Shown: in pieces, positions 17,729-44,970 of the stretch
Position numbering within the stretch: position 1 is the stretch's first letter
Layout of the letters: each line of letters opens with the position of its first letter
NCBI GenBank assembly: GCA_902779875.1
Contig: CACZCX010000005.1
Location: 1 to 56,778 of the forward strand
DNA from: an uncultured Bacteroidales bacterium
GTDB taxonomy: Bacteria; Bacteroidota; Bacteroidia; Bacteroidales; Bacteroidaceae
Direction of reading: 5' to 3'
Length of the DNA stretch: 56,778 nt
Translations under genes and position numbers: made by a program
Notes under the pieces: generated by a model
What the model saw: the letters and a program-made list of their open reading frames with translations, nothing else
What the model was told of the DNA's origin: nothing
Database searches by the model: none

Positions 17729-17759
17729 TTTGGAGTAATCACAAAAAGAAGTACCTTTG
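17729..17759 (+). promoter_or_regulatory. Promoter of tRNA-Lys (textbook Bacteroidetes form)
   Basis: TTTG at 17729-17732, 19 nt, then TACCTTTG at 17752-17759. Both boxes match the Bacteroidetes consensus exactly. The expected transcript start near 17766 is about 18 nt before the mature tRNA; the leader holds a small hairpin (CGCTTT / AAAGCG). Confidence 0.88.
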
Positions 17760-21265: not shown

Positions 21266-21296
21266 CAAAGATACAGAAAGTACCATTGCAAGCAAA
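21266..21296 (-). promoter_or_regulatory. Promoter of tamL
   Basis: On the minus strand TTTG (21296-21293), 19 nt, TATCTTTG (21273-21266): a perfect match to both Bacteroidetes boxes. Expected start near 21259, giving a leader of about 34 nt. Confidence 0.85.
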
Positions 21297-35783: not shown

Positions 35784-35814
35784 TTTGAATAATTTTTAAA
35801 ATTATGTATATTTG
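35784..35814 (+). promoter_or_regulatory. Promoter of the binding protein / partner-switch operon
   Basis: TTTG at 35784-35787, 19 nt, TATATTTG at 35807-35814: an exact match to both Bacteroidetes boxes. Expected start near 35821, giving a leader of about 24 nt to the ATG at 35845. Confidence 0.85.
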
Positions 35815-35844
35815 CATAACTCTACGCCCTATTCAAGCATAAAC

Positions 35845-36786
35845 ATGAGAAAAAGCTTAATTATAACCTTGCTCGTCAGCCTGATGGCAGTCACGGCGCG
35901 GGCACAGGAAAAATTCATATTTACTCCGCAATGGACAGCCCAGGCACAGTTTGCCGGTTACTACGTAGCCTTGGAGAAGGGGTTCTACAAGGATCTGGGG
36001 CTCGACGTGGAGATTGTCCACCCCTCTGTAACCCAGTCTGCCATAAACCGCATACAGAACAACGAGAGTCATGCCACCACACTCCAGCTGGCCCAGGCCA
36101 TGGAGATAGTAGGTGACGGAATTCCCCTTGTGAACATACTACAGACCTCCATGAACAATGCCATGGTCATTGTATCGCGCCGAGGCAAGAACCCTCTGGA
36201 ACAGCAGGGTGAGAAGGTCGGCATATGGCAGGCCGGATTCGGTCAGATTGCCATCTGCATGAGTATCAACGACAACCTGGGCTACCGTTGGGTACCCTTT
36301 GCCAACAATGTAAACCTCTTTATTGAGGGTGCAGTCGATGCCACCCTGGCCATGAGCTACAACGAGTACTACCAGCTCAAGCAGACCGGCATAGAGTTTA
36401 CTGAGGATAATGTATACCGTTTCTGCGACCACGGATACAACATACAGGAGGACGGCCTGTACATGACTCTGGAATACTACAACAAGCATCAGGACCAGGC
36501 CCGCAGGTTCGCCGACGCCAGCCGTAAAGGTTGGGAGTACGCCATGGAGAACCCGGAGGAGACTCTCGACATAGTCATGCGCATGGTGCAGAAAAACAAC
36601 ATTCCTACCAACTCTGTGCTCCAGAAGCTCATGCTTGACGAGGTCATCAGACTCCTTCATGACCGCGAATCGGGCAAAGCCGAGTTCCGTCTGCGTAAGG
36701 ACATGGTCGACAAGGCCAGCCGTTACATGTATGAGATAGGAATGCTCAACCGCCCTGTCACATATGAGGAAATCCTAGCCAAATGA
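35845..36786 (+). CDS. NMT1/THI5-like periplasmic substrate-binding protein
   Basis: 313 residues from the ATG at 35845; an earlier in-frame ATG at 35812 lies in the -7 box region and is rejected. Residues 1-21 form a signal peptide (VTARA-Q). The body is a type II periplasmic-binding-protein fold of the NMT1/SsuA/ThiY group: FTPQWTAQAQFAGYYVALEKG at the start and GFYKDLGLDVEIV next. Relatives bind thiamine precursors, sulfonates or similar compounds for ABC import. Here no permease or ATPase is present; the ATGA overlap ties it to a membrane phosphatase, so it may present a ligand to that sensor. The ligand is unknown. Confidence 0.88.
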   Translation: MRKSLIITLLVSLMAVTARAQEKFIFTPQWTAQAQFAGYYVALEKGFYKDLGLDVEIVHPSVTQSAINRIQNNESHATTLQLAQAMEIVGDGIPLVNILQTSMNNAMVIVSRRGKNPLEQQGEKVGIWQAGFGQIAICMSINDNLGYRWVPFANNVNLFIEGAVDATLAMSYNEYYQLKQTGIEFTEDNVYRFCDHGYNIQEDGLYMTLEYYNKHQDQARRFADASRKGWEYAMENPEETLDIVMRMVQKNNIPTNSVLQKLMLDEVIRLLHDRESGKAEFRLRKDMVDKASRYMYEIGMLNRPVTYEEILAK

Positions 36787-39155
36787 ATACGGACATGAAA
36801 CAGGAAAAGCAGAAATCACTTTCAACCAGACTCAGTATCTGGATCGTGCTGTTTGCAGCTGTCATATTCATAGCTGCGCTGGGAGTCTTCTTTGCGGAGT
36901 CACGCAACGCCGTACGCCGTGAGGCCATCAACAACGCCACACAGGTGCTGGACAACACCGTCCAGCGTGTGGACAACATACTCAAAGGTGTCAAGGTGGC
37001 AACTGAGAACACCGCATGGCTGGTAGGCCGTCACCTTGACGAGCCCGACTCCATGTTCACCTACTGCCGCAGCATACTCCAGAACAACCCCAACCTGAAC
37101 GGATGCTCCATAGCTTTTGAGCCTTTCCATTACAGGCAGAAGGGACTCTATTTCTCGGCCTACGCGCTCAACGAAAACGGCCGCATACAGACCACCCAGG
37201 AGGGTAACGACCACTACCAGTATTTCTACCTTGACTGGTACCAGCTTCCCAAACTGCTCGACCGTCCCTGCTGGACAGAGCCGTTCAGGGACTTCAACCC
37301 CGAGGATATCTACTCCAAGGAGATGATTATCTCCTACTGCATCCCCATCAAGGATACGGATCAGAGATATATCGGAACCATGTCGGTCGACCTCTCGCTC
37401 GACTGGCTCTCCAAGACCATATCGGCAGTAAAGCCCTACCCCAACTCATACAGCATCATGATCGGTAAGGGCGGTACATTCTTTGTACACCCCGACTCAT
37501 CCAAGCTGTTCTACCAGACCATATTCACACAGACCATGCTTGAGCCCGACTCATCCGTCATCAATCTGGGTCATGACATGCAGGCCGGTCTGGAGGGCGT
37601 ACGTCAGATGGATATCGACGGTACGAACAGCTACGTATTCTTCAAGCCTCTGGCCGAGACCGGATGGAGCGTAGGTATAGTTTGTCCCGCCAGTGACATA
37701 TTCGGCGGATATTTCCGTCTCATCAACTCCATCATCGGTATCGTGATCGTGGGACTGCTGCTCATGCTCATGGTATTCAGCAGCATCATAACCAAACAGC
37801 TCGAGCCGCTTGAGGACCTGGTTTATCAGGCAGAGACCATCGCATCGGGTAACCTGCTGGAGGAACTGCCCGAATACACCCACAATGACGAGATAGGACT
37901 GCTCAACAAGTCGTTCCGCAACATGCAGCTCTCTATCGTGAACCAGATGGAGGAGCTCAAGAAGGTGAACGAACAGAAAGGTCGCATACAGAGCGAGCTC
38001 AAGATTGCGCGTGACATACAGATGGCCATGCTGCCCAAGATATTCCCGCCCTACCCGGACCGTGACGACATTGACGTATTCGGCAAGCTGACACCTGCCA
38101 AGGAGGTGGGCGGCGACCTGTTCGATTTCTACATCCGTGACGAGAAGCTCCTGTTCTGCATAGGCGACGTATCGGGCAAGGGCGTTCCGGCATCGCTCTA
38201 CATGGTGGTAACCAGGGCTCTGTTCCGAACCATATCGGCCCATGAGTCATCACCGAGCAAGATAATTCAGAACCTCAACGAGGTCATGTCAAAGGGCAAC
38301 GAGTCCAATATGTTCGTGACCATGTTCATAGGTGTGCTTGACCTGCCTACCGGACGTCTGCATTACTGCAACGCCGGACATGACGCGCCTCTGCTTATAG
38401 GCAACACCGGTGCCGGCATGCTTCCGGTTGACTCCAACCTGCCCGTAGGCGTGCTTCCGGAGTGGAAATTCAGCCTGCAGGAGACGCTTCTTGATCCCGA
38501 TACCACCATATTCCTGTACACCGACGGACTGACCGAGGCCGAGAACATAGACCACAAGCAGTTCGAGATGTCACGTATGGTTGAGCTGGCCAAGAGCATG
38601 CAGAAGGCCGGTACGTTCACACCCACATTCGTGGTCAATGAGATGACTGAAAAGGTACAGGCATTCGTAGGTGAGGCCGACCAGAGTGATGACCTTACCA
38701 TGCTGGCCATCCAGTACACCAAGCACCATAAGGACATAGTCTATCAGCACAGCCTCACGCTGACCAACGACCTCAAGCGCGTGCCCCGTCTGAACGCATT
38801 CATCGATGAGGTATGTGAGGCCAACGGGTTCGATATGTCCACCACCATGCAGATAAACCTGGCCATTGAGGAGGCGGTAGTCAACGTCATGAACTACGCC
38901 TATCCCGAGGGTACCAAGGGTGACATAAACGTAGAGGCCAAGTCCAACGGCGAGGTGATGAAATTCATAATACGTGACACCGGCGTTCCGTTTGACCCGA
39001 CCGTGAAGGAGGAGGTCGATATCACCCTCAGCGCCGAGGACCGTGAGATAGGCGGCCTGGGCATACATCTGATACGCCAGATTATGGACAATATAAACTA
39101 CGAGCGTACTGAAGGCCATAACGTGCTCACATTAACCAAGAAATTGCCAAAATAA
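36783..39155 (+). CDS. Membrane sensor: Cache domain, HAMP, SpoIIE phosphatase and RsbW-like kinase fused
   Basis: 790 residues. Order: membrane segment (about 20-40), periplasmic dCache-like sensor (about 45-310), second membrane segment (about 313-335), HAMP and coiled coil (336-410), PP2C/SpoIIE phosphatase (about 420-640) and GHKL ATPase (about 655-790). The phosphatase keeps its metal acids (GGDLFDF near 442, GDVSGKG, YTDGLTEAEN, QSDDLTML). The ATPase keeps its N-box (AIEEAVVNVMNYAYPEG, near 695), RDTGVPFDP and GGLGIHLI. SpoIIE/RsbU phosphatases dephosphorylate STAS antagonists and RsbW-type kinases phosphorylate them; here both are in one chain. The likely target is the STAS protein two genes downstream. 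Confidence 0.92.
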   Translation: MNTDMKQEKQKSLSTRLSIWIVLFAAVIFIAALGVFFAESRNAVRREAINNATQVLDNTVQRVDNILKGVKVATENTAWLVGRHLDEPDSMFTYCRSILQNNPNLNGCSIAFEPFHYRQKGLYFSAYALNENGRIQTTQEGNDHYQYFYLDWYQLPKLLDRPCWTEPFRDFNPEDIYSKEMIISYCIPIKDTDQRYIGTMSVDLSLDWLSKTISAVKPYPNSYSIMIGKGGTFFVHPDSSKLFYQTIFTQTMLEPDSSVINLGHDMQAGLEGVRQMDIDGTNSYVFFKPLAETGWSVGIVCPASDIFGGYFRLINSIIGIVIVGLLLMLMVFSSIITKQLEPLEDLVYQAETIASGNLLEELPEYTHNDEIGLLNKSFRNMQLSIVNQMEELKKVNEQKGRIQSELKIARDIQMAMLPKIFPPYPDRDDIDVFGKLTPAKEVGGDLFDFYIRDEKLLFCIGDVSGKGVPASLYMVVTRALFRTISAHESSPSKIIQNLNEVMSKGNESNMFVTMFIGVLDLPTGRLHYCNAGHDAPLLIGNTGAGMLPVDSNLPVGVLPEWKFSLQETLLDPDTTIFLYTDGLTEAENIDHKQFEMSRMVELAKSMQKAGTFTPTFVVNEMTEKVQAFVGEADQSDDLTMLAIQYTKHHKDIVYQHSLTLTNDLKRVPRLNAFIDEVCEANGFDMSTTMQINLAIEEAVVNVMNYAYPEGTKGDINVEAKSNGEVMKFIIRDTGVPFDPTVKEEVDITLSAEDREIGGLGIHLIRQIMDNINYERTEGHNVLTLTKKLPK

Positions 39156-39157
39156 AG

Positions 39158-40660
39158 ATGCTGATACCACTTTCCGTTTTTAACATCGACCTTTCTGCGA
39201 GCAACCTGATACTGTTCGTATCGCTGCTTATGTTCGTGGCTATCCTGGTAGCCAAGATCGGAACCAAATACGGTGTCCCTACCATGTTGCTGTTCCTGGT
39301 TCTGGGTATGCTGGCCGGTGAGGACGGACTGGGCATAAAGATAGAGAGCCTGCATGTGGCTGAGTTCCTGGGCCATTTTGCCATGACCATCATCCTTTTG
39401 TCAGGCGGTCTGGAGACATCGATGGAAGAGACCAGGCCCATCATAAGGAAAGGTATATCCATGACCACCCTGGGCATGTTCATCACCATTGCCCTTACCG
39501 GTGTGTTCATCTATTACGTATGGGGTGACCGCATAGGAGGAGCCGGCAAGACCATCATGGGCTGCATGCTTCTGGCTGCAGTCATGTCATCGACCGATTC
39601 CGCATCGGTGTTCTCCATACTCAGGAGCAAGCGCCTGTCACTACGCGAGAACGTAGGTCCCATCCTGGAACTTGAATCGGGAAGTAACGACCCCACCGCA
39701 TATGTGCTCACCATCCTTATAGTCCAGATCATGGACGTCATGGAGACCCAGGCAGGCACAGGAGCCACTTGGACGGTGATACTTCACGGAGCATGGGTGT
39801 TGGTGAACCAGATAGCCATGGGATTCGCCATGGGTTGCGCTATCGGATACGGAGCCCGTTGGCTGCTCACCAGGATACATCTGCCCAACGGCTCGCTCTA
39901 CTCCATCCTCATACTCAGCATAGCCATGTTCGCCAACGGTGCCACATCCTATCTGGGTGGTAACGGACTGCTGGCCCTCTACATATCGGCCATCATAATG
40001 GGTAACACCAAACAGATGCCTTTCCGCAAGGAGGTGCTCCAGTTCTTTGACGGAATCACATGGCTCTCACAGCTAATTATGTTCCTTCTGTTAGGACTGC
40101 TGGCCAAGCCCACGCAGATGCCTCACATCATTGTGCCTGCGCTCTTTATCGGACTGTTCATCATGATCGTGGCACGTCCCGCCGGCATCATACTGAGCCT
40201 GCTGCCGTTCAAGGGCCTCTCGTTCAGGGCCAAGCTGCTGGCATCGTGGGTAGGACTCAAGGGAGCCGGCCCCATACTGTTCGCCCTCTATACCGTAATT
40301 GAGGGAGTGGACGGTTCAAACGAGATATTCAACATCGTGTTCTGCATAACCCTGCTCTCGCTGCTCCTGCAAGGCATGACACTCTCCCCCATGGCTCACC
40401 TGCTCAACATGAGCATTGATGATGACCCTGAGGTTGAGACATTCGGCATGGAGATACCGGAGGAGATGGGAATTCTGCGTGACCATATCGTCACGACCGA
40501 TGACCTGGAACGCGGCGCCACCCTGAGGGAGCTGCATCTGCCGCACGGAATCCGTGTGGTCATGGTAAGGCGCGGTCCCAAATACATAGTACCTCACGGA
40601 AGCCTCAAGCTCATGGAGGGCGACAGGCTCGTGATACTCATGGGAGATACTGAAGATTAA
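39158..40660 (+). CDS. Potassium/proton antiporter, CPA1 NhaP2/CvrA type, with TrkA-C domain
   Basis: 500 residues. About 12 membrane segments form a cation/proton antiporter domain up to about residue 405. SSTDSASVFSILRS and LELESGSNDPTAYVLT are the membrane-core motifs; the paired Asp residues and the ND pair fit CPA1 exchangers. The C-terminal 80 residues are a TrkA-C (RCK-C) ligand-binding domain (ATLRELHLPHGIRVVMVRR, LKLMEGDRLVIL). The family exports K+ (or Na+) for protons across the inner membrane. It lies 2 nt after the phosphatase/kinase and 25 nt before the STAS gene, so it may be the controlled output. Confidence 0.9.
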   Translation: MLIPLSVFNIDLSASNLILFVSLLMFVAILVAKIGTKYGVPTMLLFLVLGMLAGEDGLGIKIESLHVAEFLGHFAMTIILLSGGLETSMEETRPIIRKGISMTTLGMFITIALTGVFIYYVWGDRIGGAGKTIMGCMLLAAVMSSTDSASVFSILRSKRLSLRENVGPILELESGSNDPTAYVLTILIVQIMDVMETQAGTGATWTVILHGAWVLVNQIAMGFAMGCAIGYGARWLLTRIHLPNGSLYSILILSIAMFANGATSYLGGNGLLALYISAIIMGNTKQMPFRKEVLQFFDGITWLSQLIMFLLLGLLAKPTQMPHIIVPALFIGLFIMIVARPAGIILSLLPFKGLSFRAKLLASWVGLKGAGPILFALYTVIEGVDGSNEIFNIVFCITLLSLLLQGMTLSPMAHLLNMSIDDDPEVETFGMEIPEEMGILRDHIVTTDDLERGATLRELHLPHGIRVVMVRRGPKYIVPHGSLKLMEGDRLVILMGDTED

Positions 40661-40685
40661 TTGACAATTAAATAATTGATAAAGT

Positions 40686-40991
40686 ATGGAAGTTAAGATC
40701 ACCACACAGGACTCCGTCACCACAGCACAGCTGATCGGACGTCTTGACACACCCGCATCACAGGAGATTAGCGGAGACTTTGAGAACCTTACCAAGTATG
40801 CCGCCGGCACAGTCATTCTGGACTGCACCCAGCTGGAGTACATCTCCAGTTCCGGTCTGAGACTCTTTCTGTCACTGAGAAAGGCAGCCGCATCAAAGGG
40901 TGGTAAGGTAATTGTAAAGGCCATCAACAACGAGATCCGCTCGGTGTTCATGATGACCGGATTCCTGAACCTGTTCGAGATTCAGGACTGA
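40686..40991 (+). CDS. STAS-domain antagonist (SpoIIAA/RsbV-like)
   Basis: 101 residues, a single STAS domain. The phosphorylatable Ser lies in LEYISSSGLRLFLSLRKAA, preceded by the strand VILDCTQ. SpoIIAA-type proteins bind their kinase when unphosphorylated and release a partner. Bacteroidetes have no SigB/SigF-type sigma factors, so the partner here is not a standard sigma factor; the antiporter or an unlinked protein are options. A strong terminator follows. Confidence 0.92.
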   Translation: MEVKITTQDSVTTAQLIGRLDTPASQEISGDFENLTKYAAGTVILDCTQLEYISSSGLRLFLSLRKAAASKGGKVIVKAINNEIRSVFMMTGFLNLFEIQD

Positions 40992-41005: not shown

Positions 41006-41055
41006 AAGAGACCCGGGCTCTCCGTTTGGTTGGGGAGCCCGGGTCTCTTGCTTTA
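41006..41055. terminator. Strong bidirectional terminator between the STAS gene and rmuC
   Basis: Perfect 15-bp stem AAGAGACCCGGGCTC / GAGCCCGGGTCTCTT with a 14-nt loop. The plus-strand tail is GCTTTATT and the minus-strand tail TTTATCCC. It sits between convergent genes, 14 nt after the STAS stop and overlapping the rmuC stop. Confidence 0.92.
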
Positions 41056-42396
41056 TTCTGTTGCGGTGTCAGGCGTATCGGGAGACTCATCGTCATCGTC
41101 AGGGAGCTGTTCCTGGAGCTGAGGTATGGGATTGCGCGAGCTCTGCTTGGCACCCAGCTTCTGCAGTTTTCCGCAGGTCTGTATTATGCTCTGACCGCTC
41201 GGCAGGAGTTTCTTCTCACCTGCCTCATAGGCCTTGCCGGCATTCTCAAGAGCCTTGCCTATGGCCTTGTATCGGTCCATGAACTGGCCCACGCGGTCCA
41301 TCATCTCATTTGCCAGCTCGTAGACCTTCTCATGATTCTCAGCCTGACGTATCTGGGTCCATGTCATGTTGATTATGCGAAGGGCGGCGAACAGGGTCTG
41401 CTCATCGGCTATATAGACGTTTTTCTCCATGGCGTTGCGCCACAGGTCGGGTTGGGCCTTGACGGCGGTCCACAGGGCGCCTGTATTGGGGACGAACATT
41501 ATCACATAGTCCATCTTGATCTTGGGCGGCTTGACGTATGACGAATAGTCCTTGGCCGATAGTTCCTTGACATGTTTCTGGATGCTGTCCACATGAGCCT
41601 TGAGGAATCGCTGGCGCTCGTTCTCGTCATCCGAGTTCACATAATCCATGAATGCCGTCAGGGAGACCTTGGAGTCAATGATGACATCACGCTCCATATC
41701 CAGATGAAGTATCACGTCGGGACGCATGCTGTGTTCGGAATCATTGCGGACCACATCGCCGGCAGCATCACGGATTGATGACTGGAGATCATAATGTACG
41801 CCCTTGGTCAGACCCTGTGATTCAAGCAGCTCGTCAAGTATTATCTCGCCCCAGTTGCCCTGTACGCGTCCGGCGTGGCGGAATACACGTGTCAGTTCAT
41901 CGGCACTCTGCTTGGCGGCGGCACTCTGACGCATCATGTTCTCCGCCTGGGTCTTGATCTCACTGCTTATGGAGGTCTGCTTGAGGGTATTCTCCTGCAT
42001 GGCCTCCTTCATCTTGTCAATGGTCTCCTTGAGGGGATTGACTATCTGCCCTATGCTGCTGTTGCTGGAGGCGGCAAACTCCTCCTGGCGTTTCTTGAGC
42101 ATCTGCTCGGTGGCGGTACCCATCTGGGCCGTGACCTTGGCTATGGTCTCATCGAACTTGGACTGCTGGGCTGCCATGAGTTCCTGGGTGTGTGACTGCC
42201 ACTCCTCACGGGAACGGGCCAGTCGGGCATCGGACTCGTCCTTGTCTTTCTTAAGCTGCTCGTCCTTAGCCTCCAGCTGTTTTGCGAGCATGGCGGCCTG
42301 CGCCTCGAGCTCCGCCTCCCTCTTGCGGTTACGGCCGAGAAGGAATCCCACGAGTGCTCCCAGAGCCGCGAACAGTATGTATAACAATATCTCCAT
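41053..42396 (-). CDS. rmuC: RmuC-family DNA recombination protein
   Basis: 447 residues. One N-terminal membrane anchor (about 3-22) is followed by a long coiled coil (25-180) and the RmuC nuclease-like domain (GRVQGNWGEIILDELLESQGL, RPDVILHLDMERDVIIDSKVSL, and MDYVIMFVPNTGAL). RmuC limits inversions at short repeats in E. coli. The acidic tail (LPDDDDESPDTPD) is probably disordered. It stands alone on the minus strand. Confidence 0.93.
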   Translation of the reverse strand: MEILLYILFAALGALVGFLLGRNRKREAELEAQAAMLAKQLEAKDEQLKKDKDESDARLARSREEWQSHTQELMAAQQSKFDETIAKVTAQMGTATEQMLKKRQEEFAASSNSSIGQIVNPLKETIDKMKEAMQENTLKQTSISSEIKTQAENMMRQSAAAKQSADELTRVFRHAGRVQGNWGEIILDELLESQGLTKGVHYDLQSSIRDAAGDVVRNDSEHSMRPDVILHLDMERDVIIDSKVSLTAFMDYVNSDDENERQRFLKAHVDSIQKHVKELSAKDYSSYVKPPKIKMDYVIMFVPNTGALWTAVKAQPDLWRNAMEKNVYIADEQTLFAALRIINMTWTQIRQAENHEKVYELANEMMDRVGQFMDRYKAIGKALENAGKAYEAGEKKLLPSGQSIIQTCGKLQKLGAKQSSRNPIPQLQEQLPDDDDESPDTPDTATE

Positions 42397-42446
42397 TTGT
42401 ACAGCGAATGATTACGTTTGCAGTTGTAAATATAAGCATTTAATCA

Positions 42447-42475
42447 TTGTCAAGCCAAAGAAAAAAATATCTTTG
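42447..42475 (+). promoter_or_regulatory. Promoter of the alarmone synthetase operon
   Basis: TTG at 42447-42449, 18 nt, TATCTTTG at 42468-42475, close to the Bacteroidetes consensus. The -7 box is exact. The leader to the ATG at 42503 is about 21 nt. Confidence 0.75.
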
Positions 42476-42502: not shown

Positions 42503-43567
42503 ATGCCAAAGACCAGACATCTCGATCCTCACTGCGAGGCAATACTTGAGGAATACCAGAGTAATCTTCCACGATTCAGAGAGGTTGAACAGACTGTCAA
42601 GCAGAAGCTGAGCGACACGTTCCGCGAGGCCGGGCTGCTTGTGGCTGCCATTGAGTCACGCGTCAAGGCATATGACTCGCTGGCCGGCAAGCTGGAACTC
42701 AAAGGGCAGAAATACAAGAGCCTGGCCGATATAACCGATATCCTGGGCCTGCGTGTCATTACCTTCTATATCGATGACGTGGACAAGGTGGCATCGGCCG
42801 TGGAGAAACTGTTCGAGATAGACTGGGAGAACACCATCGACAAGCGCAAGATACATGAGATTGACAGCTTTGGCTATCTCTCGCTGCATTACATATGCTC
42901 CGTGCCCGGTTTCCCCTACCGTTTTGAGATTCAGATGCGCACACTGCTGCAGCATGCATGGGCCAACATGGACCATGACACCGGTTACAAGTCGGGCGTG
43001 GAGATTCCCAAACGCTACTTGCGTAACATGAGCCGTCTGGCAGGTATGCTGGAGCTGGTCGATGACGAGTTCAGCAAGATACGCATAGAGCTCACCGACT
43101 ACCGCCGCAAGGTGCAGTCGCTCGTGCGTTCCGGCAACCTTGACGAGGTGCCGCTTGACGGTGACACGTTCCGCAGCTACCTGGAACTGGAGCCGTTCAG
43201 CCAGCTCAACAAGCGTATCGCAGCCATGAACCAGGCCGAGATACAGGATGTATCGATCCTGCCCTACCTGGCCGTGTTCAAGGGCATCGGACTCAAGACC
43301 CTTGGCGATATCGCCACCGTAATCAAGGAGTATTCAGAGGGTGCATATCAGATTGCCTGCTATCAGATAGGACTCACCGACCTGGATATAATCTCATCGT
43401 CCATCGGCCCGCAGGACCTCTGCATTGCCTATATACTCAAGAACGGAGGCGGCAAGGCCGGTATCAGGCATATGTTTGACCTGCTTAACGGCGAGTCAGA
43501 GAGTAATGATATGATGGCGGAGATGCTTCTGGAACAGTCCAAGGGCCTGCCTTTTATGAACAAATAA
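42503..43567 (+). CDS. Stand-alone RelA/SpoT-type alarmone synthetase with extra C-terminal domain
   Basis: 354 residues. The (p)ppGpp synthetase fold spans about 20-200 and has its active-site residues: RVKAYDSLAGK at 53-63 fits RxKxxxSxxxK, DILGLRVITFY holds the metal Asp, GYLSLHYI is the G-loop and FEIQMRT (near 143) has the catalytic Glu. There is no HD hydrolase domain in this chain. Residues about 215-354 form an added domain I do not recognise. The hydrolase is encoded 6 nt downstream as a separate protein. It could be a housekeeping small alarmone synthetase or a toxSAS-type enzyme. Confidence 0.9.
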   Translation: MPKTRHLDPHCEAILEEYQSNLPRFREVEQTVKQKLSDTFREAGLLVAAIESRVKAYDSLAGKLELKGQKYKSLADITDILGLRVITFYIDDVDKVASAVEKLFEIDWENTIDKRKIHEIDSFGYLSLHYICSVPGFPYRFEIQMRTLLQHAWANMDHDTGYKSGVEIPKRYLRNMSRLAGMLELVDDEFSKIRIELTDYRRKVQSLVRSGNLDEVPLDGDTFRSYLELEPFSQLNKRIAAMNQAEIQDVSILPYLAVFKGIGLKTLGDIATVIKEYSEGAYQIACYQIGLTDLDIISSSIGPQDLCIAYILKNGGGKAGIRHMFDLLNGESESNDMMAEMLLEQSKGLPFMNK

Positions 43568-43573
43568 ACCTAT

Positions 43574-44140
43574 ATGGCTAACAAACCGTTAGACACCGCA
43601 TTTCTTGACCGCGCCATAGAGTTCGCGGTAAAAGCCCATGCCGGCACAGAACGCCGAGGCAAGGGATTTCCCTACGTAGTACACCCGCTTGAGGCCATGG
43701 CTATCGTGGCCACCATAACATCGGACCAGGAGCTGCTGGCCGCCGCCGCGCTTCATGACACGGTTGAGGACACAGACGTCACTCTGGAGCAGATCCGTAA
43801 GGAGTTCGGTGACCGTGTGGCGCAGCTGGTCAATGTTGAGAGCGTGGGCGATGACGAGGGCACGTGGCATGAGCGCAAGCGGAAAGCCATTGACCGCATA
43901 GCCGCCGCTCCGCTCGATGCCAAGATCGTAGCCTTGGGGGACAAGCTCTCCAACATGCGTGCCATAGCGCGCGACTACTACCTTCAGGGCGATTCCCTAT
44001 GGAGCCTTTTCCACGCCAGCGATCCCAAGGACCACGAGTGGCACTACCGCGGACTGGCCGATGCCCTTAAGGAGCTCAAGGACACGTTCGCATATCAGGA
44101 ATTTGAATGGTTGATTGAAAAAGTCTTCAGTAAGAAATGA
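43574..44140 (+). CDS. HD-domain small alarmone hydrolase (MESH1-like)
   Basis: 188 residues. The order of metal ligands matches RelA/SpoT hydrolases: VVHPLEAMAI (His), ALHDTVEDTDVT (His-Asp then Glu-Asp, near residue 61) and VALGDKLSNMRAI (Asp...Asn, near 120). Such small alarmone hydrolases remove the 3'-pyrophosphate from (p)ppGpp and, in toxSAS systems, can undo toxin-made nucleotides or tRNA modifications. It overlaps the next gene by 4 nt and follows the synthetase by 6 nt, so the two activities are made together. Confidence 0.9.
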   Translation: MANKPLDTAFLDRAIEFAVKAHAGTERRGKGFPYVVHPLEAMAIVATITSDQELLAAAALHDTVEDTDVTLEQIRKEFGDRVAQLVNVESVGDDEGTWHERKRKAIDRIAAAPLDAKIVALGDKLSNMRAIARDYYLQGDSLWSLFHASDPKDHEWHYRGLADALKELKDTFAYQEFEWLIEKVFSKK

Positions 44141-44970
44141 TTGATCCCGTAAAAATATCACTCAGTGACTATGTGCTCTCCGGCGGAGGTGCCAACGGAG
44201 AGAGTTATGACCACAAGACCGACCCCGGGGTCATGCTCAAGCTCTATTTTCCGGGCAAGATCCAGCAGCCCTATGACGAGATGATGATGGCCCGCAAGGT
44301 CTATGAGCTGGGCATACCGTCACCCGAGCCCGGCGACCTGGTGGTAACTGAGGACGGCCGCTACGGCATACGGTTCCGCCGCATCCTCGGCAAGAAATCA
44401 TATGCCCGCGCCACCGGTGACAACCCGGCCCTGGTGGGTCAGTACGCCCAGGAGTTCGCCCAGATGTGCAAACAGCTCCATACGGTCCATGTTGACACCA
44501 CCCGGTTCGAGAACGTAAAGGACCGATACTACCGTCTGCTCGAATCCAACCCCTTCTTTACCCCGCAACAGAAGGACCGCATAGGCAAGTTCATATCCGA
44601 TGCCCCCGACTCCGACACCGCCATCCACGGTGACCTGCAGTTCGGCAATGCCATATTCACCGACACAAGCCGCTATTTCATAGACCTGGGTGATTTCTGC
44701 TACGGTTACAGCCTCTTTGACGTGGGTATGGTTTACCTGTGCTGCTGTCTGAGCCATGCTGATTTCATTGAGGAGACCTTCCATATGCCCAAGCCGGTAG
44801 CCATTAAGTTCTGGCAGGAGTTTGCCGTCGCTTACTTTGGCCAGGACCGTCCGCTCAAGGATATAGAGGAGGAGATACGCCCTTATGCCGGCCTCAAGAC
44901 CCTCATCGTGGAGCGTGACACCAACTGCCCCATGCCGGAGCTCCGTGAAGGAATGGCATCACTTCTTTGA
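44137..44970 (+). CDS. Aminoglycoside-phosphotransferase-fold kinase of unknown substrate
   Basis: 277 residues. The APH/choline-kinase fold is shown by the catalytic loop IHGDLQFGN (Asp near 165) and the metal motif FIDLGDFCYG. The N-lobe has LSGGGANGESYDHK as glycine-rich loop and a Lys in VMLKLYF. The sequence resembles a group found as paralogues in Fibrobacter and Bacteroidetes. Its substrate is unknown. It overlaps the hydrolase gene by 4 nt (ATGA); the stop is directly followed by repeat A, which would terminate the operon. Confidence 0.85.
   Translation: MIDPVKISLSDYVLSGGGANGESYDHKTDPGVMLKLYFPGKIQQPYDEMMMARKVYELGIPSPEPGDLVVTEDGRYGIRFRRILGKKSYARATGDNPALVGQYAQEFAQMCKQLHTVHVDTTRFENVKDRYYRLLESNPFFTPQQKDRIGKFISDAPDSDTAIHGDLQFGNAIFTDTSRYFIDLGDFCYGYSLFDVGMVYLCCCLSHADFIEETFHMPKPVAIKFWQEFAVAYFGQDRPLKDIEEEIRPYAGLKTLIVERDTNCPMPELREGMASLL

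Follow-up and report, generated by a model that had tools for sequence, protein, structure and literature searches.

The DNA studied here, called the window throughout, is the entire contig CACZCX010000005.1 (56,778 bases) of an uncultured Bacteroidales bacterium of the Bacteroidaceae, whose genome assembly (GCA_902779875.1) comprises 2.14 Mb in 74 contigs and is 86.5% complete. Between positions 35784 and 44970 it holds a partner switch that appears to take its input from a periplasmic binding protein and, further downstream, genes for a RelA/SpoT-type synthetase, an HD_4 hydrolase and an APH-like kinase. A preliminary description had covered the genes of the binding protein, a sensor phosphatase/kinase, a K+/H+ antiporter and a STAS protein. 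The positions of these four genes (35845-40991) and their gaps or overlaps of -4, 2 and 25 nucleotides (nt) were reproduced, and their families were confirmed by matches to the NMT1, SpoIIE, HATPase_c_2, Na_H_Exchanger, TrkA_C and STAS domains. The extent of the unit was right for the four genes, and the three genes at 42503-44970 had been overlooked. The gene models are mechanical frames, and starts and overlaps are therefore rough. The features are as follows:

35784-35814, plus strand: Bacteroidetes-type promoter from a pattern scan, TTTG (-33), 19 nt, TATATTTG (-7)
35845-36786, plus strand: periplasmic binding protein, NMT1/THI5-like (ThiY/THI5 relatives), NMT1 8.2e-31, signal peptide recognised by eye
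36783-39155, plus strand: membrane sensor of 790 amino acids (aa), by its domain matches a dCache-HAMP-SpoIIE phosphatase-HATPase_c_2 (RsbW-like) kinase fusion
36909-37679, plus strand: dCache sensory domain (aa 43-299 of the sensor), PDC/dCache match, exchanged together with the binding protein in the genus
38139-38717, plus strand: SpoIIE/PP2C phosphatase domain (aa 453-645), SpoIIE 3.7e-48
38763-39140, plus strand: HATPase_c_2 (RsbW-like) kinase domain, 3.6e-26
39158-40660, plus strand: K+/H+ antiporter (CvrA/NhaP2-type), lineage-specific, Na_H_Exchanger 3.4e-45
40514-40642, plus strand: TrkA_C domain at the antiporter C-terminus, TrkA_C 3.3e-9
40686-40991, plus strand: STAS-domain protein with a conserved putative phospho-acceptor, Ser55 (codon 40848-40850), STAS 1.3e-16
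41006-41049, plus strand: terminator-like hairpin from a hairpin scan, 19 pairs and then a T-rich tail
41053-42396, minus strand: RmuC gene, between STAS and synthetase
42446-42475, plus strand: candidate second promoter upstream of the synthetase, ATTG-N18-TATCTTTG, one mismatch, found by eye
42503-43567, plus strand: small RelA/SpoT-type synthetase, 354 aa, RelA_SpoT domain
43574-44140, plus strand: HD_4 hydrolase of the SpoT/Mesh1 kind, 188 aa, HD_4 domain
44137-44970, plus strand: APH-like kinase, TIGR02172 214.9 bits, just under the cut-off of 228.2

The proposal that one promoter drives the four genes agrees with the layout of the unit. At its 5' end lies a perfect -33/-7 pair (TTTG-N19-TAnnTTTG) of what we take to be the Bacteroidetes promoter consensus, and the hairpin closes it at the other end. 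Allowing spacers of 17-22 nt, three such pairs are present in the window against 0.32 expected; the other two are at 17729-17759 (plus strand) and 21266-21296 (minus strand). The binding protein starts with ATG, the sensor overlaps it by four nt, and the antiporter and STAS follow after 2 and 25 nt, respectively. Because the hairpin scan found four hairpins in the window against 4.2 expected, the evidence for this one is the length of its stem. STAS and the three downstream genes are separated only by RmuC, which is encoded on the opposite strand. It separates STAS from the synthetase in five other genomes of the genus as well, and is probably not part of the system.

The comparisons below cover 37 genomes of the genus, 151 sampled genomes of the family and 295 of the order (G numbers), and 201 annotated loci (L numbers), which were chosen in several biased ways. 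The loci were labelled with our own profiles, built on the analysed sequences, and representatives were checked with Pfam. Labels as DASS below about 400 aa and as ABC963 are loose. A set of 80 named NMT1 loci holds the best 80 of at least 580 relatives; it leans to rumen Bacteroidaceae and overlaps the sampled genomes (L149 and G133, L188 and G127, L146 and G469, L148 and G462, and L158 and G442 are apparently the same contigs).

The catalytic motifs had been described as intact, and conservation among relatives agrees with this. The metal-binding aspartates of the SpoIIE phosphatase and the N-box and G-boxes of the kinase are present in the sensor. Across 94 fused sensors, ten positions (five aspartates of the phosphatase and five residues of the kinase) are identical, with one row gapped at three of the ten, and S55 is found in all 102 distinct STAS proteins. 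The STAS protein passes TIGR00377 (63.4 bits, cut-off 53.45), and the sensor stays below the NCBIfam equivalog cut-offs for RsbW (51.8 of 145 and 45.8 of 155 bits). This kinase domain is the only HATPase_c_2 match over the Pfam cut-off in its own genome, which has two STAS matches, the second inside a 564-aa frame. Several families encode NMT1, Cache-PP2C, HATPase and STAS as separate genes in a row (L111-L114, L116, L119, L121, L123), and the fusion is therefore one form of a wider four-part system. No SigB/F/G-type sigma factor exceeds the cut-off in the 86.5% complete genome, the best match having 27.6 bits against the SigBFG cut-off of 234.35. A SigB-type output was therefore rejected, in line with the earlier statement that the output must differ from the Bacillus model.

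Relatives of the binding protein occur in 40 of the 295 order genomes and in 35 of 184 genera, and relatives of the sensor in 57 of the 151 family genomes; both counts include a few weak matches. In 79 of the best 80 of at least 580 NMT1 loci the next gene is that of a Cache sensor. In the remaining locus the NMT1 frame is broken in two, again with the sensor following it. This supports binding protein and sensor as one conserved pair. The genus provides a natural exchange of the two. Among 17 complete or nearly complete genus sensors, 12 have NMT1 upstream and five do not. The N-terminal parts of the 12 are 68-74% identical to that of the window sensor, itself excluded, whereas those of the five are only 27-29% identical, while their phosphatase/kinase parts retain 71-80% identity. 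The partition is complete (12/12 one Cache type, 5/5 another; p 1.6e-4, ignoring shared ancestry). The five sensors without NMT1 are distributed over two clades of the tree, with mutual N-terminal identities of 57-91%, and their loci keep the antiporter (its frame is broken in G024), STAS, and the synthetase with hydrolase and/or APH. Because NMT1 and Cache type are exchanged jointly, both would belong to the input in the genus, and the remainder to the output; the swap, a genetic correlation, supports binding protein and Cache domain as a putative input half. Over a larger sample, median scores on the profile of the NMT1-linked Cache domain are 396 bits in 96 sensors with NMT1 and 190 bits in 36 without.

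An ABC transporter for the binding protein had been reported as missing, and the search bears this out: no BPD_transp_1 permease was found in the 86.5% complete genome, compared to matches in 14 of 14 control genomes. The protein as an orphan part of an ABC importer was therefore rejected. The clue to its ligand is the kinship to ThiY/THI5. The family has W-Q-AQF where the structures PDB 4nmy and 3ix1 have W-P-N, and we therefore do not claim a pyrimidine ligand.

The three downstream genes are those of a putative alarmone system. In the synthetase, K67, G68, K70, D79, R84, Y125, H129, E142, Q144 and H158 are invariant in 26 synthetases; their roles we take from RelSeq-type structures. The nearest solved structures are RelP/RelQ-type GTP pyrophosphokinases (2.3e-18), and CapRel follows at 1.5e-4. 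The residue after the conserved tyrosine differs from the arginine of RelP/RelQ, the protein stays below the NCBIfam equivalog cut-off (56.8 of 320), and Pfam gives no match for its last ~150 residues at E 0.001. The hydrolase carries the H, HD, ED and D/N residues of the HD_4 pattern, of which H37, H61, D62, E65, D66, D123 and N127 are invariant in 18 relatives and presumably form the active site. Small alarmone hydrolases, Mesh1 and Rel HD domains are among the structures closest to it. From these residues and relationships, synthetase and hydrolase are predicted to make and break the bacterial starvation signal.

The linkage of these genes to the switch was assessed with the synthetase as query, so that the loci were not picked by the switch. 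The synthetase is encoded in 31 of the 37 genus genomes, and in 29 of the 31 it is at most 2.5 kilobases from a phosphatase, kinase or STAS gene. It is found in 22 of the 151 family genomes, 19 of them at >=51% identity. All 19 fall among the 57 genomes with sensor relatives (ancestry uncorrected), ten have it beside phosphatase, kinase or STAS, and one is cut by a contig end. Across the order it occurs in 26 of the 295 genomes, seven of these being strong matches including the own genome; outside the family, four of six strong loci, from three families, cluster with PP2C, HATPase and STAS. Synthetase, HD_4 and APH recur around the module in varying order. In L296 and L297 all genes are on one strand with gaps of at most 46 nt, in the order NMT1, sensor, CvrA, STAS, RSH, HD4, APH; L349 has RSH, HD4, APH, sensor, STAS, and L165 and L209 have HD4, NMT1, sensor, STAS, RSH. 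Within the 201 loci, all 26 distinct cases of a synthetase next to STAS have gaps of at most 60 nt (median 12), and 26 of the 27 cases of HD_4 next to a synthetase lie within 60 nt (median 3). There are also fused frames: STAS-APH in L062:4267-5478, L072:4207-5400 and L074:7376-8584 (by Pfam in two), HD4-APH in L289, L292, L347 and L348 (by Pfam in one), and HD4-RSH in L284 only (by profile label). Synthetase or HD_4 is near NMT1 in 24 of 37 loci with kinase-fused sensors compared to 1 of 42 with unfused ones (p 6e-10, again ignoring shared ancestry). This comparison uses 79 usable of the best 80 of at least 580 loci, L192 standing in neither column; L184 and L211 were counted as unfused, although their sensor frames look like broken fusions, and L211 is the single unfused locus with synthetase or hydrolase. 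In the genus of the window, no other genes accompany the switch as consistently as those of the RelA/SpoT-type synthetase and the HD_4 hydrolase. We favour the reading, to which we would give an even chance, that the ligand-sensing partner switch controls alarmone metabolism with the antiporter as an accessory.

The linkage could also be explained by co-transcription alone. In this alternative, which we consider unlikely but the most serious of those weighed, the locus is a co-regulated stress cluster in which transcription is all that synthetase, hydrolase, kinase and transporters share with the switch, whose target is encoded elsewhere. Several observations speak for it or weigh against alarmone control. 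In the window, RmuC, the hairpin and the candidate second promoter part STAS from the synthetase, and the synthetase genes may have a promoter of their own. In G104 and G461 the synthetase lies away from the switch; G461 (L376) keeps synthetase, hydrolase and APH beside RmuC but lacks the whole block of NMT1, sensor, antiporter and STAS at that place, so that the downstream genes can stand alone. The synthetase is away from the switch in 8 of the 19 family genomes, and it is unlinked in the other two of the six strong loci outside the family (one genus). Taking the 108 distinct STAS genes, the synthetase is the next gene (same strand, <=100 nt) for only 23; the next gene is DASS-labelled in six (counted without a length floor), a hydrolase in five, a tyrosine phosphatase in three and NMT1 in one, two are at an edge, 28 have another gene, and 40 have no such neighbour. 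Neither synthetase nor HD_4 is near in 13 of the 37 fused NMT1 loci or in the order-wide loci L111-L131, and the core set of NMT1, PP2C, HATPase and STAS is found across the order without the synthetase. The neighbours differ by lineage and comprise transporters, ABC proteins and a tyrosine-phosphatase family (PF13350, two representatives scanned; 11 of the 201 loci and several more genus loci). The pairing of NMT1 and Cache type follows a looser rule beyond the genus, where 16 of the 36 sensors without NMT1 outscore the lowest of the 96 with it, and both P values (24/37 versus 1/42, and the 12 versus 5 partition) count related loci as independent. However, the same gene set recurs in shuffled order and also in the clusters without NMT1 in three other families, and the fused STAS-APH and HD4-APH frames are not predicted by simple co-transcription.

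The antiporter had been proposed as a possible target of STAS. It passes the NCBIfam potassium/proton antiporter model NF003716 (484.9 bits, cut-off 355); on the other PRK05326 models it reaches 397.7 of 309 and 326.9 of 471. Antiporters of the module type (>=74% identity) are found in 21 of the 37 genus genomes, directly upstream of STAS in all 21 loci and directly downstream of the sensor in 20, the contig of L309 beginning inside the antiporter gene. Four more distant antiporters of the genus genomes that were inspected lie elsewhere (L310-L313), among them one on C32 of the own genome with 36% identity. When 89 fused sensors are placed on a tree, those with the antiporter in the slot make up a single clade of 17 rows (SH-like approximate likelihood ratio test 100), one row of which is cut at a contig end. 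The slot next to the sensor changes at least seven times on the tree (66 of the 89 rows have CvrA, DASS with a 400-aa floor, or STAS), and in 37 of the 89 STAS directly follows the sensor with no transporter in between. As a general output the antiporter was rejected, because it is confined to one clade and missing from most module loci. NMT1, phosphatase, kinase and STAS do co-occur across the order, as expected for one system, and the module occurs there without the antiporter, which belongs to one clade of the sensor tree. In the proposed circuit the pair of NMT1 and sensor, backed by the Cache swap, and the intact switch parts stand, and the antiporter as a general output does not. It looks like a late addition and an accessory.

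STAS might instead control the antiporter directly, by way of the TrkA_C region of the transporter, with the alarmone genes as bystanders. The constant position of the antiporter between sensor and STAS in the genus argues for this, as does the occurrence of a more distant CvrA (40% identity) adjoining NMT1 in L110, one other family. In other genera a CitMHS/DASS transporter fills the antiporter slot (15 distinct pairs of sensor and DASS at several places in the tree, counted without a length floor), and four of these slot transporters that were scanned by Pfam have TrkA_C domains. That two different transporter families with TrkA_C occupy the slot suggests that a transporter of this kind is useful to the switch as an effector but is not its universal output, and an action of STAS or its signal on a TrkA_C transporter may be kept alive as a side branch. 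Nevertheless, direct regulation of the antiporter as the main function is improbable given its restriction to one clade and the 37 sensors followed immediately by STAS. In addition, the own genome encodes one diadenylate cyclase, the enzyme for c-di-AMP (cyclic di-AMP), which conventionally regulates via TrkA_C and offers this domain another regulator. Least probable is that synthetase and hydrolase adjoin the switch by chance as a phage-defence or toxSAS toxin-antitoxin pair, in which RelA/SpoT-type toxins are in some cases neutralised by hydrolase antitoxins: the synthetase has a weak PADLOC match (PDC-S33, 1.6e-15), but among solved structures it is closer to RelP/RelQ than to CapRel, its presence in most genomes of the genus is unlike typical mobile defence genes, and its linkage to the switch extends to several families.

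Returning to control of alarmone metabolism, we infer ligand binding, phosphorylation, the acting state of STAS and its target protein by building on what is observed, namely that binding protein and Cache domain are paired, that the catalytic residues are intact, that the linkage is conserved and that fusions occur. The permease-less NMT1 protein would bind a small molecule and report its state to the dCache domain, for which the natural swap speaks. HAMP would relay the signal and shift the balance between the SpoIIE phosphatase and the RsbW-like kinase, as judged from their families and intact residues, and this balance would set the phosphorylation level of the invariant Ser55 of STAS. In one phospho-state STAS would bind and switch the synthetase and/or the HD_4 hydrolase, as gene linkage and fusions suggest, in a way that would resemble the switching of the cyclase SiaD by SiaC in Pseudomonas. 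The APH-like kinase may be a further player or effector. The K+/H+ antiporter, inserted between sensor and STAS in this genus, might be an accessory effector on whose TrkA_C domain STAS or the nucleotide signal would perhaps act. In its most specific form, that a Bacteroidales RsbUWV-type switch directly controls a split RelA/SpoT system and that nucleotide or STAS tunes the TrkA_C antiporter, the proposal is tentative and somewhat less probable than alarmone control in general.

The window system shares the SpoIIE-type phosphatase, the HATPase_c_2 kinase and the STAS protein with RsbU/RsbW/RsbV (SigB) and SpoIIE/SpoIIAB/SpoIIAA (SigF) of Bacillus. S55 aligns with the serine of SpoIIAA that we take to be the phospho-site. 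Unlike in the Bacillus switches, phosphatase and kinase are fused behind dCache-HAMP, binding protein and alarmone genes are linked, and the genome has no SigB/F/G sigma factor over the cut-off. The best solved match to the fusion is Rv1364c of Mycobacterium (PDB 3ke6, 6e-16), which spans the phosphatase into the kinase part and differs in its sensory part. To our knowledge, neither a periplasmic binding protein nor alarmone genes are linked to Rv1364c. The best solved matches of the binding protein are NMT1 family proteins of the ThiY/THI5 type (PDB 4nmy, 3ix1, 4h65; 5.6e-26 and 5.1e-19), and in contrast to these it is paired with a sensor phosphatase and has no BPD_transp_1 permease in its genome. 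With RelP/RelQ and small alarmone hydrolases the enzymes have domain content and active-site residues in common (PMC3153485), while the window synthetase has an additional C-terminal stretch of ~150 aa and is linked to a partner switch. The closest working model is SiaABCD of Pseudomonas aeruginosa, which also combines a PP2C-like phosphatase, a kinase and a STAS-like protein with a nucleotide second-messenger enzyme; there, the STAS-like protein activates a diguanylate cyclase, the output is c-di-GMP (cyclic di-GMP), and the phospho-site is a threonine (PMC7647112, PMC8457831). The window system is not a member of SiaABCD. It has a serine, an added binding protein, and a RelA/SpoT-type synthetase with a hydrolase; the SiaA model gives 64.5 bits on the sensor (cut-off 700), and GGDEF is absent among the ten window genes scanned by Pfam, the only genes scanned for it. 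For its eight Bacteroidia, the table of the 2011 RelA/SpoT survey has long Rel and RshB only (PMC3153485). The 2021 review of STAS-only proteins describes, in the parts available to us, systems whose target is unknown, and neither "bacteroid" nor "alarmone" appears in that text (PMC8256260). In titles and abstract openings of the papers retrieved from the open-licence literature we found neither NMT1 together with SpoIIE/STAS nor a partner switch acting on alarmone enzymes.

Several further arrangements were seen among the relatives. In L165:9000-18942 one partner-switch set (NMT1, sensor, STAS and RSH) is succeeded by another (PP2C with HATPase, DASS and STAS), and the STAS-APH fusion of L074 stands directly after a stand-alone HATPase kinase. 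In L139-L144 sensor and STAS precede a ~435-450-aa protein, for which L139 as the one scanned gave a weak Alginate_exp match, and then a frame of up to 2471 aa; these long-frame genes are another possible partner-switch output. In L111:10513-14652, three further genes come after NMT1, PP2C, HATPase and STAS: those of an ABC_sub_bind protein, of a 412-aa protein whose N-terminal part is a STAS domain, and of a BPD_transp_2 permease. L053:9775-12666 and L054 have a 963-aa ABC_tran/ABC2_membrane protein next to the fused sensor. In L127-L131 the PP2C phosphatase is apart from the Cache domain, which belongs to a long protein; in L127, the one scanned, this long protein (883 aa) has GAF and HisKA and is a histidine kinase. 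Outside the module arrangement, five genomes share a conserved neighbourhood that encodes NMT1 proteins of 764-806 aa (L132-L136, e.g. L132:6042-8336), and the last 500 residues of the L132 protein, the one scanned, have no Pfam match.

Partner switches are known mainly as controls of sigma factors, and their output in bacteria without such sigma factors is largely open. A conserved tie to alarmone enzymes would offer a testable output and would join two major stress-signalling systems. The natural swaps of Cache domain and binding protein are ready-made tests of signalling by a permease-less binding protein. If alarmone control is true, it would be a ribosome-independent, receptor-driven stringent response, and gut Bacteroidales would mount an alarmone response from an outside nutrient cue and not from stalled ribosomes.

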